This document shows positions 51,043-55,933 of a DNA stretch of 64,000 nt, piece by piece. The position numbers were made by a program, and so were the translations under genes. The stretch comes from Caulobacter sp. BP25 (GTDB lineage: Bacteria > Pseudomonadota > Alphaproteobacteria > Caulobacterales > Caulobacteraceae): NCBI RefSeq assembly GCF_002737755.1, contig NZ_PEGH01000019.1:186001-250000 (forward strand), in the 5' to 3' direction. The notes under the pieces are model-generated. The model was not told the origin of the DNA and searched no databases. It saw only the letters and a program-made list of their open reading frames with translations. The first letter of the stretch is position 1. Each line of letters opens with the position of its first letter.

Positions 51043-52038
51043 CTATTTCGTCTTCTCGCCGCCCAGCCTCCTGATCGCCGCCGCCAAGTCCCGCTCACTC
51101 TCCGCATAGACGTCCCAAGCGTCGAGGCTCTTCAAAAACCCCGGCGCGGTGCGCAGATTGAAGCGCTTGGGGTTCAGCCCCTTCCTCACCTGGGTCCAGG
51201 ACACCGGCCACGACACCGGCGCGCCCGGCCGGCCCCGGGGCGATAGCGGCGCCACCGCCGTGCTCATGCGGTCGTTGCGCAGGTAGTCGAGGAAGATCTT
51301 CCCGCCCCGCTCCCTCTTGGCCATGTTCAGCAGGTAGCGCTCGGGGCTGTCGGCCGCCATTTGGGCGCAGACCTCGCGGGCGAAGGCCTTGGCTGTGTCC
51401 CAGTCGACCGCTTCTCCCTTTTTTGGGGGCTTCAGCGGCGTCACGACATGCAGCCCCTTGCCGCCCGTGGTCTTGCAGAAGGGCGACAGGCCCAACGCCT
51501 CCAAACGGTCACGGATCTCCCGCGCGCCCTCCACAACGGCGTCGAACGACACGTCGGGCGCGGGGTCCAGGTCGAAGACCAGGCGGCCGGGAACGTCCTG
51601 CTTGTTCGGCCGGCAGTTCCAGGGGTGAAGCTCGGTCGCGCCCCACTGGGCGGCCGCCACCAGGCTCTCCACGGTGTTGAAGACCAGGTAGGGCTTGCGG
51701 TCGCCGCTGACGACCATGTCGTCGATCAGGGACGAGACACCCTTGCCTGAATGACGCTGGAAGAACGTCTCGCCGTCGATGCCGTCGGGCATGCGGATCA
51801 CCGAGCACGGGCGGCCCTTGATGTGCTCCAGCATCCAATCGCCGACCGCTTCGAAGTATTCCGCCAGCTCGAGCTTGGTTCCCGGCGTCCCATCGCCGGC
51901 GTCGGACCACAGGGGCTTGTCGGGATTGGAGATCGCCACGCCCCGCACCGAAGCCTTGCCGTTTCTTCGCTTCGACAGGGGCGTCACTTTCGGTTCAAGA
52001 AGTTCGACCGCTTCGGCCAGGGCGGGCGCTTCAGCCAC
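51043..52038 (-). CDS. ligD: LigD polymerase domain (AEP primase-polymerase), separated from the rest of LigD
   Basis: The 331-residue product is a complete LigD-type polymerase domain (archaeo-eukaryotic primase family), which fills gaps and adds ribonucleotides in bacterial end joining. It has [23 protein letters not shown] with the metal-binding aspartates, [14 protein letters not shown], and [20 protein letters not shown]. In full LigD proteins of this kind it follows a phosphoesterase and a ligase domain; here the ligase is absent. Translation would need a GTG at 52038 that lacks a ribosome-binding site, so expression is doubtful. No ku gene is in the window. Confidence 0.85.
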
Positions 52039-52465: not shown

Positions 52466-52803
52466 GACTCTTCTCCTATGGTCGTAGGAGAAATGGATGG
52501 CGGCTTCCGGCGTTCCGGGTGTCGTCAACGAGCGCCTCGCCAAGCGACCTGAGAGCGCCCGAAACGCGATTCCCTCGCGGAATCACCTATGGCGCGAGCC
52601 AGCTGGTAATCCACTTTCGGGACTAAAATTAACGCCTTTGCCCTGAAACCTGCCCTTCGGGAGAAGACGATTTCGTGAAAAACCCAGGCCCACGGGCGTT
52701 TTGCCCCCATGAATCGACGTTTTAACCTTCCCTTACGGGTGACAAACGCGTTCAGCCTCGTCAGGCTTCAACACTTCCCTGATTCACAGGAATGAGCTTA
52801 GAG
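52466..52803. other. Divergent intergenic region before the HU gene
   Basis: The 338 bases hold the promoters of the acidic protein (minus) and HU (plus). CTCGCG/CGCGAG arms (about 52577-52601) make a possible hairpin. I see no gene. Confidence 0.45.
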
Positions 52804-53085
52804 ATGACGAACGTTTCCGATCTGGTCGACGCCGCTGTCGCCGCTGACGACAAGCTGACCAAGACCCAAGCCAAGGCCATCATCGACGGCGTCTTCAAGT
52901 CGATCTCCGACGCCGCCGTGAAGGGCGAAGAAGTCTCGATCCCGGGCTTCGGCAAGTTCAAGGTCCAGGCCAAGCCGGCCCGCACCGGCCGCAACCCGGC
53001 CACCGGCGCGACCATCGAAATCGCCGCCAGCAAGAAGGTCGCCTTCACGCCGGCCAAGCAACTGAAGGACGCCGTCAACGGCTAA
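52804..53085 (+). CDS. HU-family DNA-binding protein
   Basis: The 93-residue protein matches HU/IHF: an N-terminal helical dimer domain (LTKTQAKAIIDGVFKSISDA), the GEEVSIPGFGKFKV turn, the DNA-intercalating beta arm with GRNPATGATIEI, and the C-terminal helix. It is a nucleoid-compacting, DNA-bending protein. An ATG four codons earlier (52792) is possible, but its ribosome-binding site is too close; the start at 52804 matches the family N-terminus better. Confidence 0.92.
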   Translation: MTNVSDLVDAAVAADDKLTKTQAKAIIDGVFKSISDAAVKGEEVSIPGFGKFKVQAKPARTGRNPATGATIEIAASKKVAFTPAKQLKDAVNG

Positions 53086-53186: not shown

Positions 53187-53201
53187 GAACAAATCAAGAA
53201 C
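53187..53201. promoter_or_regulatory. Alphaproteobacterial SOS box GAAC-N7-GAAC
   Basis: GAAC (53187-53190), AAATCAA and GAAC (53198-53201) match the alphaproteobacterial LexA site (GTTC-N7-GTTC on the other strand). It ends 15 bases before the radical SAM gene start, so LexA would block this operon directly. Confidence 0.8.
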
Positions 53202-53216
53202 GATAACGTGCTGCTT

Positions 53217-54437
53217 ATGGCCGTTCTCGATCTTAGGCGTAAGCTCGCTATCCTCTCCGACGCCGCCAAGTACGACGCCTCTTGCGCCTCGTCCGGCGCT
53301 CAAAAGCGCAACTCGCTAGGTGGCCAGGGCGTGGGCTCAACAGAGGGCATGGGCATCTGCCACGCCTACGCCCCAGATGGTCGCTGCATCAGCCTGCTGA
53401 AAATCCTGCTGACCAACTTCTGCATCTACGACTGCGCCTATTGCATCAACCGCGTGTCGTCGAACACGGCCCGGGCGCGCTTCTCGGTGAAGGAGGTCGT
53501 CGACCTCACCCTGAACTTCTACAAGCGCAACTACATCGAGGGCCTGTTCCTGTCGTCGGGCGTCATCCGCACCGGCGACTACACAATGGAGGAGATGGTC
53601 AGGGTGGCAAAGTCGCTGCGGCTGGACCACGATTTCCGCGGCTACATCCATCTGAAGCTGATCCCCGAGGCCTCGCCAGAGCTGGCGGCCGAGGCGGGGC
53701 TCTACGCCGATCGGGTGTCGATCAACATCGAACTGCCGCGCGACGACAGCCTCAAGGCCTTGGCGCCCGAAAAGGACGTCACCGACATCAAGCGCGCCAT
53801 GGGCCGAATGCGCCTGGAGATCGAGGATCGCGCAGATCCCGCGCGCAAAGCGGGGCGCCGGACCTTCGCGCGCAGCCAGTCGACCCAGCTGATCGTCGGG
53901 GCGGACGCGGCCAAGGACGGCGACATCCTGGCCCGCAGCGCCAACCTCTATGGCGCCTATCGGCTGAGCCGCGTCTACTATTCCGCCTTCAGCCCCATCC
54001 CGGACGCCAGCCATCGCCTACCGCTGGCCCGCCCGCCGCTGCTGCGCGAGCACCGCCTATATCAAGCCGACTGGCTGATGCGGTTCTATGGCTTCGAGCG
54101 GCCCGAGATCGTCGCCGAGGGCGAGGACCTGGATCTGTCGGTCGATCCCAAGACCGGCTGGGCGCTGAGGAACCGGGGACGCTTCCCCGTCGATATCCAG
54201 ACCGCCGATCGCGAGACCCTGCTGCGCGTGCCCGGCTTGGGCGCCAAGGCCGTGGGACGCGTCCTGGCGGCCCGCAAGGTCGCGCGCTTGACCCTGGACG
54301 ACTTGAAGCGCGTGGGGGCTGTCCTGAAGCGCGCCAAGCCTTTCGTCGTGACCGTCGATTGGACGCCGGGGGCTCTGACCGATCGCGACAGCCTGAAGGC
54401 GGCGCTGGTCCAGCCCCAGCAGCTGAGCCTGTTCTGA
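53217..54437 (+). CDS. Putative DNA modification/repair radical SAM protein with C-terminal HhH
   Basis: The 406-residue protein has the radical SAM cluster motif CIYDCAYC (C69, C73, C76), the barrel segments GLFLSSGVIRTGDYTMEEMV and YIHLKLIPEASPE, and a C-terminal helix-hairpin-helix (LLRVPGLGAKAVGRVLAARK) that suggests DNA binding. It fits the family called 'putative DNA modification/repair radical SAM protein', which is paired with a uracil-DNA-glycosylase-like partner, as here. The reaction is unknown. The ATG at 53217 was chosen at the family N-terminus; it lies 16 bases after an SOS box. Confidence 0.9.
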   Translation: MAVLDLRRKLAILSDAAKYDASCASSGAQKRNSLGGQGVGSTEGMGICHAYAPDGRCISLLKILLTNFCIYDCAYCINRVSSNTARARFSVKEVVDLTLNFYKRNYIEGLFLSSGVIRTGDYTMEEMVRVAKSLRLDHDFRGYIHLKLIPEASPELAAEAGLYADRVSINIELPRDDSLKALAPEKDVTDIKRAMGRMRLEIEDRADPARKAGRRTFARSQSTQLIVGADAAKDGDILARSANLYGAYRLSRVYYSAFSPIPDASHRLPLARPPLLREHRLYQADWLMRFYGFERPEIVAEGEDLDLSVDPKTGWALRNRGRFPVDIQTADRETLLRVPGLGAKAVGRVLAARKVARLTLDDLKRVGAVLKRAKPFVVTVDWTPGALTDRDSLKAALVQPQQLSLF

Positions 54438-55933
54438 TGCGGGTCGTTCGGCTGGCGTGCGAGACCGACTTCGCCGGTTGGCGGACGGCGGCGCGGGCGC
54501 TGCGGGCGGAGGGGGTGGAGCCTGAGGGCGTGGTGTGGACGGTGGAGAGAGACCTCTTCTCCCCTTCCCCTTGCGGGGAGGGGGCTGGAGCTGGAGGTGT
54601 CAGCCCGGCGAACTCAGAGCAAACACCCCCATCCCCAACCCCTTCCCCGCAAGGGGGAAGGGGCTTTACTGTCCCAGCCGCCTTCCTGGAGCTGGCCGAG
54701 CAGGTCATCCTAAACCGCGCGCCGGAGCGCTTCGCCCTGCTCTACCGCATCTTGTGGCGGCTGGAACGCGAGCCGCGCCTGATCGAGAACCCCGCCGACG
54801 CCGACATGGCCAAAGCCCGCGATATGGCCAAGGCCGTCAGCCGCGCCGCGCACAAGATGAAGGCCTTCGTCCGCTTCCGGCTGGTCGAGGGCGCGGCGAC
54901 CGAGACCTACGCCGCCTGGTTCGAGCCGGCGCACCGCGTCACCGAGGCGGTCGCGCCGTTCTTCGTGCGCCGCTTCACCGCCATGGACTGGACGATCCTG
55001 ACGCCCGACGTCTGTGTCGCCTGGGACGGCGAGCGGTTGATGGTGTCGGAAGGCGCAGACCCGGCCGACGCACCGTCAGAGGACGCGCAGGAGGAGCTCT
55101 GGCGCACCTACTACGCCTCGATCTTCAACCCGGCGCGGCTGAACCCCAAGCAGATGCGCCAGGAGATGCCCAAACGCTATTGGCGGAACCTGCCGGAGGC
55201 GGCGCTCATTCCGGAACTGATCGCCACCGCCCAGGAGCGCGCCGCCGCCATGGTCGCCGCCCCCACTCGACCGCCCTCCGAACGGGTGCTGAAGGCCGCG
55301 CTGCGACATTCACGCGACGCCTCTTTTGGGCAAGGCGCGCCGACGACGCTGGAGGAGGCGGAGGCCGGGATTCAGCTCTGCCGACGTTGCGACCTGTGGC
55401 GCGACGCGACCCAGGGCGTGCCGGGGGAAGGCCTTGGTCGCGCGCCGCTGATGTTCGTCGGCGAACAGCCGGGCGATCAGGAAGATCTGGCCGGGCGGCC
55501 TTTCGTCGGACCGGCTGGCCAGGTGTTCGACAAGGCGCTGGCCGAAGCAGGCGTGCCCCGCGACCAAGCGTTCGTTACCAACGCCGTAAAGCACTTCAAG
55601 CACGAGGTCCGCGGCAAGCGGCGCTTCCACAGGACGCCGGATCGCGGCGAGGTCGCCGCCTGCCGCTGGTGGCTGGACGCCGAGCGGCGGATCGTTCGAC
55701 CTCGGGTGATCGTGATGCTGGGCGCGACAGCGGCTCTGGGGTTGATCGGCAAGCCGACGCCCATCGAGGCCAATCGCGGCAGGGCCTTGCAGTTGCCAGA
55801 CCAAGCTCAGGGCCTGGTGACCTATCACCCGTCTTTCCTGCTGCGCGCGCCTGACGCCGCGGCCAAGGCGCGCGCCTATGCGGAGTTTGTCGAGGACCTC
55901 CGAATGGCGGCAGCGCTGGCTGGGCTGACATAG
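54437..55933 (+). CDS. UDGX-like uracil-DNA glycosylase fused to an N-terminal DUF, with in-frame repeat insertion
   Basis: The 498-residue protein has two parts. Residues 1-280 are the DNA-metabolism domain found N-terminal to such glycosylases (ERFALLYRILWRLEREPRLI, FVRRFTAMDWTILTPD). Residues about 290-498 are a UDG: CRRCDLW, motif GEQPGDQEDLAGRPFVGPAG, then NAVKHFKHEVRGKRRFH and TYHPSFLLR. The KRRFH (H398) corresponds to the KRRIH of UDGX, whose His bonds covalently to DNA after uracil removal. Residues about 40-77 come from an inserted palindromic repeat. The start is coupled to the radical SAM stop (TGATG). Confidence 0.9.
   Translation: MRVVRLACETDFAGWRTAARALRAEGVEPEGVVWTVERDLFSPSPCGEGAGAGGVSPANSEQTPPSPTPSPQGGRGFTVPAAFLELAEQVILNRAPERFALLYRILWRLEREPRLIENPADADMAKARDMAKAVSRAAHKMKAFVRFRLVEGAATETYAAWFEPAHRVTEAVAPFFVRRFTAMDWTILTPDVCVAWDGERLMVSEGADPADAPSEDAQEELWRTYYASIFNPARLNPKQMRQEMPKRYWRNLPEAALIPELIATAQERAAAMVAAPTRPPSERVLKAALRHSRDASFGQGAPTTLEEAEAGIQLCRRCDLWRDATQGVPGEGLGRAPLMFVGEQPGDQEDLAGRPFVGPAGQVFDKALAEAGVPRDQAFVTNAVKHFKHEVRGKRRFHRTPDRGEVAACRWWLDAERRIVRPRVIVMLGATAALGLIGKPTPIEANRGRALQLPDQAQGLVTYHPSFLLRAPDAAAKARAYAEFVEDLRMAAALAGLT
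54556..54666. repeat. Palindromic repeat element inserted in frame in the UDG gene
   Basis: Arms such as CCCCTTCCCCTTGCGGGG (left) and CCCCGCAAGGGGGAAGGGG (right) form a long imperfect inverted repeat, extended inward by GGAGGTGT/ACACCCCC. This is typical of dispersed intergenic palindromes in Caulobacter-type genomes. It codes for a low-complexity Pro/Gly/Ser stretch without breaking the reading frame. Confidence 0.8.

Follow-up and report, generated by a model that had tools for sequence, protein, structure and literature searches.

What does a radical SAM protein do in an operon with a UdgX-like glycosylase? In the window analyzed here, a stretch of 64,000 nucleotides from Caulobacter sp. 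BP25, a radical SAM gene is preceded by a candidate SOS box and directly followed by a gene with a UdgX-like domain. From the letters alone, the two proteins had been read as a LexA-inducible repair pathway in which a radical reaction handles a base or the covalent adduct formed by the glycosylase. The DNA-repair setting of that proposal is retained here, but a radical SAM protein devoted mainly to the UdgX adduct is not supported. We consider the locus to be, with fair probability, a LexA-repressed operon for a DNA-lesion-processing system. Its features are the following.

53187-53201, plus strand: LexA/SOS box GAAC-N7-GAAC, GAACAAATCAAGAAC, ending 15 nt before the ATG at 53217
53217-54437, plus strand: radical SAM/helix-hairpin-helix (HhH) protein, TIGR03916 (rSAM_link_UDG), 406 residues, by profile score and AlphaFold model
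53283-53387, plus strand: additional invariant cysteines C23, C48 and C57 (plus H49), from 41 members
53421-53444, plus strand: CxxxCxxC radical SAM cluster motif, C69/C73/C76, invariant in 41 diverse members
54189-54272, plus strand: HhH DNA-binding motif, residues ~325-352, by HHH_5 and the family profile
54437-55933, plus strand: gene 2, DUF4130-UdgX fusion, 498 residues, by open reading frame, profile scores and AlphaFold model (pLDDT 88.5)
54455-55201, plus strand: TIGR03915 region, gene 2 residues 7-255, 216.5 bits against a cut-off of 112.25
54561-54662, plus strand: palindromic repeat of ~102 bp with 40-nt inverted arms, inserted in frame into the linker that precedes DUF4130
54722-55198, plus strand: Pfam DUF4130 within the TIGR03915 region, 146 bits
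55205-55906, plus strand: UdgX domain, TIGR03914, 315 bits against a cut-off of 189.95
55460-55474, plus strand: UdgX motif A, GEQPG, residues 342-346
55616-55630, plus strand: UdgX R-loop, KRRFH, residues 394-398, with the cross-linking His398

The layout agrees with the sequence-only reading in its coordinates: the box is perfect and lies 15 nt before the radical SAM start, and the stop codon of the radical SAM gene (TGA, 54435-54437) shares one base with the ATG of gene 2 at 54437 (TGATG). The box has no significance by itself, since 1.34 bare GAAC-N7-GAAC matches are expected per window by chance and the genome-wide count (62 + 48, compared with 58 + 72 for a reversed control pattern) is also at chance level; as stand-alone evidence it was therefore rejected. 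It is significant because of its position and its conservation across orthologues.

The search of other genomes for the gene pair with a LexA box was run on alphaproteobacterial loci and on loci from beta- and gammaproteobacteria and related groups. A perfect box lies within 120 bp upstream in 134 of 139 alphaproteobacterial loci, four others have a box with one mismatch and one has none (138/139 with at most one mismatch), compared with ~0.1% for random windows of the same loci. Within Caulobacterales, a perfect box is found just upstream in 27 of 28 loci. The box varies in the six loci that represent other families of this order: four have it in the GTTC orientation, one has a GAAC box at a different distance and one (L037) has a one-mismatch site only. 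The box is thus not merely copied sequence. The 36 loci from beta- and gammaproteobacteria and related groups carry the E. coli-type box CTGT-N8-ACAG instead, perfect in 25 (background 0.7%) and with one mismatch in a further five Pseudomonas-like loci. After thinning to less than 75% identity, 28 of 32 alphaproteobacterial loci retain a perfect box (31 of 32 with one mismatch allowed), as do eight of ten from the beta/gamma group. In two verrucomicrobial loci (L220 and L221), a site resembling TGTTC-N4-GAACA lies at the start codon; no recognized box was found in L143, L183, L199 and L200. In the genome of Caulobacter sp. BP25 itself, where 16 stretches were checked, the motif also precedes imuA, ssb, ruvC, tag, a PA0069-family radical SAM gene and an HhH-GPD glycosylase gene, and lexA (G000:C7:92013-92708) has two boxes just upstream. 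By its sequence, the conserved direct-repeat promoter box (GAAC/GTTC-N7) places the operon in the alphaproteobacterial LexA regulon, and LexA control, as first proposed, is supported by sequence and conservation. For operons of this type in Caulobacter, PMC8565304 cites da Rocha et al. 2008 as reporting damage induction and LexA binding.

Gene 2 had been taken for a glycosylase, which holds for the UdgX domain at its end; its first half, the DUF4130/TIGR03915 region, had been overlooked, and its presence changes the reading of the operon. Among 397 sampled Pseudomonadota genomes, 103 encode a TIGR03916 protein scoring over the cut-off, and in all 103 a TIGR03915/DUF4130 gene lies on the same strand within 6 kb of the radical SAM gene (Fisher p = 8e-93). 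UdgX directly follows in 75 of the 103, is cut by a contig end in one more (G229) and is absent in ~27. SOS control follows the same division. Loci without UdgX retain the LexA box in 31 of 33 cases (12/13 in alphaproteobacteria and 19/20 in the beta/gamma group, one mismatch counted), as do all three DUF4130 genes without a radical SAM partner; standalone udgX genes have a perfect box in only two of 20, one of which (L294) lies in the relic of a decayed DUF4130 gene. SOS control thus belongs to the radical SAM-DUF4130 core and not to UdgX. On these genomic patterns, the radical SAM protein and DUF4130 are the constant core, an obligate pair, and UdgX is a fused accessory that is often missing, although its membership in the operon is supported.

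These patterns bear directly on the proposal of a radical SAM role in the UdgX reaction, in which the protein would either remove or remodel the His-DNA adduct or prepare the UdgX substrate. The overlapping genes of a single operon speak for it, as do the UdgX domains fused in about three quarters of the Pseudomonadota members with the cross-linking His kept. About a quarter of the Pseudomonadota members and several other loci, however, have a radical SAM protein of this family with all six cysteines and no UdgX. Mapping presence of UdgX onto the radical SAM tree takes 15 changes, and at least eight gains or losses are forced by well supported branches; 16 genomes of the Pseudomonadota sample have UdgX scoring over the cut-off and no radical SAM gene. 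We regard this explanation as very improbable, and the claim that the radical SAM protein exists mainly for the UdgX adduct is not supported, given constant pairing with DUF4130 and frequent absence of UdgX with the LexA box intact.

The UdgX domain itself is well defined. It matches the M. smegmatis UdgX structures with Z scores of ~30 (29-30) at 48-50% identity, and all three published UdgX marks (motif A GEQPG, R-loop KRRIH and motif B HPS(S/A)(L/V)(L/V)R; PMC10359453) have counterparts in gene 2, including an HPS-x-LLR motif B. Nearly all of the 146 fused UdgX domains retain the loop His, the gene of L182 being the clear degenerate exception. The earlier assignment as UDGX-like is borne out by the TIGR03914 score, the motifs and the fold, and the numbering of H398 is correct (GEQPG begins at residue 342 and KRRFH spans 394-398), and on this evidence the C-terminal domain of gene 2 is a UdgX with an intact predicted cross-linking site. 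It differs from M. smegmatis UdgX in being C-terminal, fused to DUF4130 and SOS controlled beside a radical SAM gene.

The radical SAM protein passes TIGR03916 (NCBIfam) with 543.4 bits against a cut-off of 343.5 over residues 6-401, and its AlphaFold model (pLDDT 83) contains a radical SAM barrel. Six cysteines, namely C23, C48, C57 and the CxxxCxxC trio, are invariant across the 41 diverse members. The HhH motif reported earlier is genuine, although its sequence signal is weak: Pfam HHH_5 matches with E = 3e-4, under the gathering score, and the family profile compared with HhH chains of ComEA and RuvA gives E values of 0.002-0.05. A divergent radical SAM/HhH subfamily (L228-L243; ~290 bits), found mostly by searching the phylum of a Verrucomicrobiaceae genome, lacks C48 and C57 and keeps the radical SAM and HhH regions. 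DUF4130 is present in none of the 12 genomes bearing this subfamily, compared with four of four with the proper type, which suggests, at the level of sequence, that C48 and C57 are related to the DUF4130 partnership.

Proteins, RNA or cofactors are the targets of many radical SAM enzymes. The radical SAM protein could accordingly modify a protein partner (DUF4130, ImuB/DnaE2 or the clamp) and not DNA, and the obligate partnership with DUF4130 and the co-occurrence of C48 and C57 with DUF4130 would fit such a role. Conservation of the HhH region argues the other way, and so does the subfamily without DUF4130, which keeps both radical SAM and HhH; we think modification of a protein distinctly unlikely.

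Among the fold matches listed, the closest to the radical SAM model are lipoyl synthase LipA (Z = 17.8), HydE (17.7), BioB and RlmN, which is a general radical SAM barrel signal; none of these is a DNA enzyme. Despite the barrel Z score of 17.8, the protein lacks the N-terminal CX4CX5C auxiliary-cluster motif of LipA, C23, C48 and C57 being spaced differently. Spore photoproduct lyase (SplB) is a radical SAM enzyme with DNA as its substrate, and its precedent, together with the SOS control and the HhH motif, favors direct reversal of an SplB type, with the radical SAM protein splitting a UV thymine dimer or related photoproduct and DUF4130 as a helper. The label 'SplB-like photolyase' was applied by Anand et al. 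2013 (PMC3765255), and SplB is SOS controlled in several species (PMC8565304). The two proteins are alike in being radical SAM proteins linked to DNA damage. At E <= 0.001, however, NCBIfam returns TIGR03916 only and no spore photoproduct lyase model, and the best PDB folds listed are LipA, HydE and BioB. SplB is not among the 50 best fold matches, an absence that says little either way. The HhH motif, the extra invariant cysteines and the obligate DUF4130 also set the protein apart from SplB. This explanation appears unlikely.

The reading that we prefer is direct processing of a DNA lesion by the radical SAM-DUF4130 core. DNA damage would lead to cleavage of LexA, and the operon would be made together with the ImuA-ImuB-DnaE2 mutasome. 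The HhH motif would guide the radical SAM protein to DNA with DUF4130 as its working partner, and a 5'-deoxyadenosyl radical would be applied to a replication-blocking damaged base or sugar, which would be repaired or converted. UdgX may then excise uracil arising from deamination or from the converted base and cap the abasic site via His398, so that the capped site would be shielded from breakage while the damage is handled. DNA is proposed as the substrate because of the HhH motif, the SOS control and the neighboring genes only. More specifically, and tentatively, the core may represent a novel type of enzyme for direct reversal or base conversion in DNA. C23, C48 and C57 would then supply an additional metal or redox site, DUF4130 would either complete the radical SAM/HhH protein or be acted on by it, the lesion would be one that blocks replication and is encountered by the SOS mutasome, and UdgX would be an optional product trap.

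Neither the trio, which has names in NCBIfam, nor this kind of operon with its SOS control is new to the literature. All curated cut-offs of the TIGR03916/TIGR03915/TIGR03914 families are passed here, and the two-gene order and LexA control are those of the COG4277-COG1573 SOS operon of Caulobacter, Verrucomicrobia and Bacteroidetes (cited in PMC8565304); nothing essential differs, and gene 2 here has the palindromic repeat in its linker. Anand et al. 2013 (PMC3765255) linked DUF4130, the radical SAM protein and UDGs, and SOS regulation of the two-gene COG1573-COG4277 operon was described for Bacteroidetes in 2021 (PMC8565304), in a paper that also cites it for Verrucomicrobia and Caulobacter. 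A literature search, mostly of non-subscription papers, returned nothing on the dispensability of UdgX, on boxes tracking the core or on the association between the cysteines and DUF4130, and nothing was found on a radical SAM protein combined with a glycosylase and HhH. The trio occurs in several phyla and is LexA controlled across lineages with different LexA motifs, which indicates that cells treat it as front-line damage repair. The results point to the radical SAM protein and DUF4130 as the primary unit for biochemistry and to UdgX as an accessory, and the operon offers a concrete setting for UdgX, the physiological role of which is not agreed.

The mutasome shares the LexA regulon with the operon and is physically joined to it in some alphaproteobacteria. 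With neighbors recognized by eye from the sequence, L119 and L128 have the one-strand order imuA-imuB-radical SAM-DUF4130/UdgX-dnaE2, and in L120 and L137 the mutasome genes are divergent from the radical SAM operon. The two systems differ in that the mutasome copies past lesions, whereas the operon encodes a glycosylase and a radical SAM enzyme. A gene for a hemerythrin HHE protein (Pfam PF01814; 56063-56629, minus strand) lies just downstream of the operon in the window, and in several sphingomonad-type loci (L104, L109, L123, L125, L130 and L206) a hemerythrin-like gene separates the radical SAM gene from gene 2. In L066 and L207, the radical SAM gene and the gene for the DUF4130-UdgX fusion are separated by a nucleoside-deaminase-like gene, recognized by eye. 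No steady partner was recognized among recurrent neighbors beyond imuA/imuB/dnaE2, hemerythrin and a deaminase. Near the operon in the window, a gene with a LigD primase-polymerase domain (51043-52038, minus strand) lies upstream of an HU gene (52792-53085). A phage system or viral spread was considered and rejected, as relatives were found on only three contigs in four viral scans. One 240-kb record labeled 'Acinetobacter phage MD-2021a' (L246) has the pair beside glyS/glyQ and other bacterial genes and looks like a bacterial contig labeled as phage.

The DUF4130 half of gene 2 has no sequence match in the PDB, and in fold searches with the gene 2 model the matches were filled by UDG folds. 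The linker that carries the palindromic repeat is predicted to be disordered. Related copies of the repeat are present elsewhere in the genome (best 89%), the repeat is missing from several relatives, and several other Caulobacter species have different inserts at the same site of gene 2, suggesting that this linker site is an insertion hot spot.
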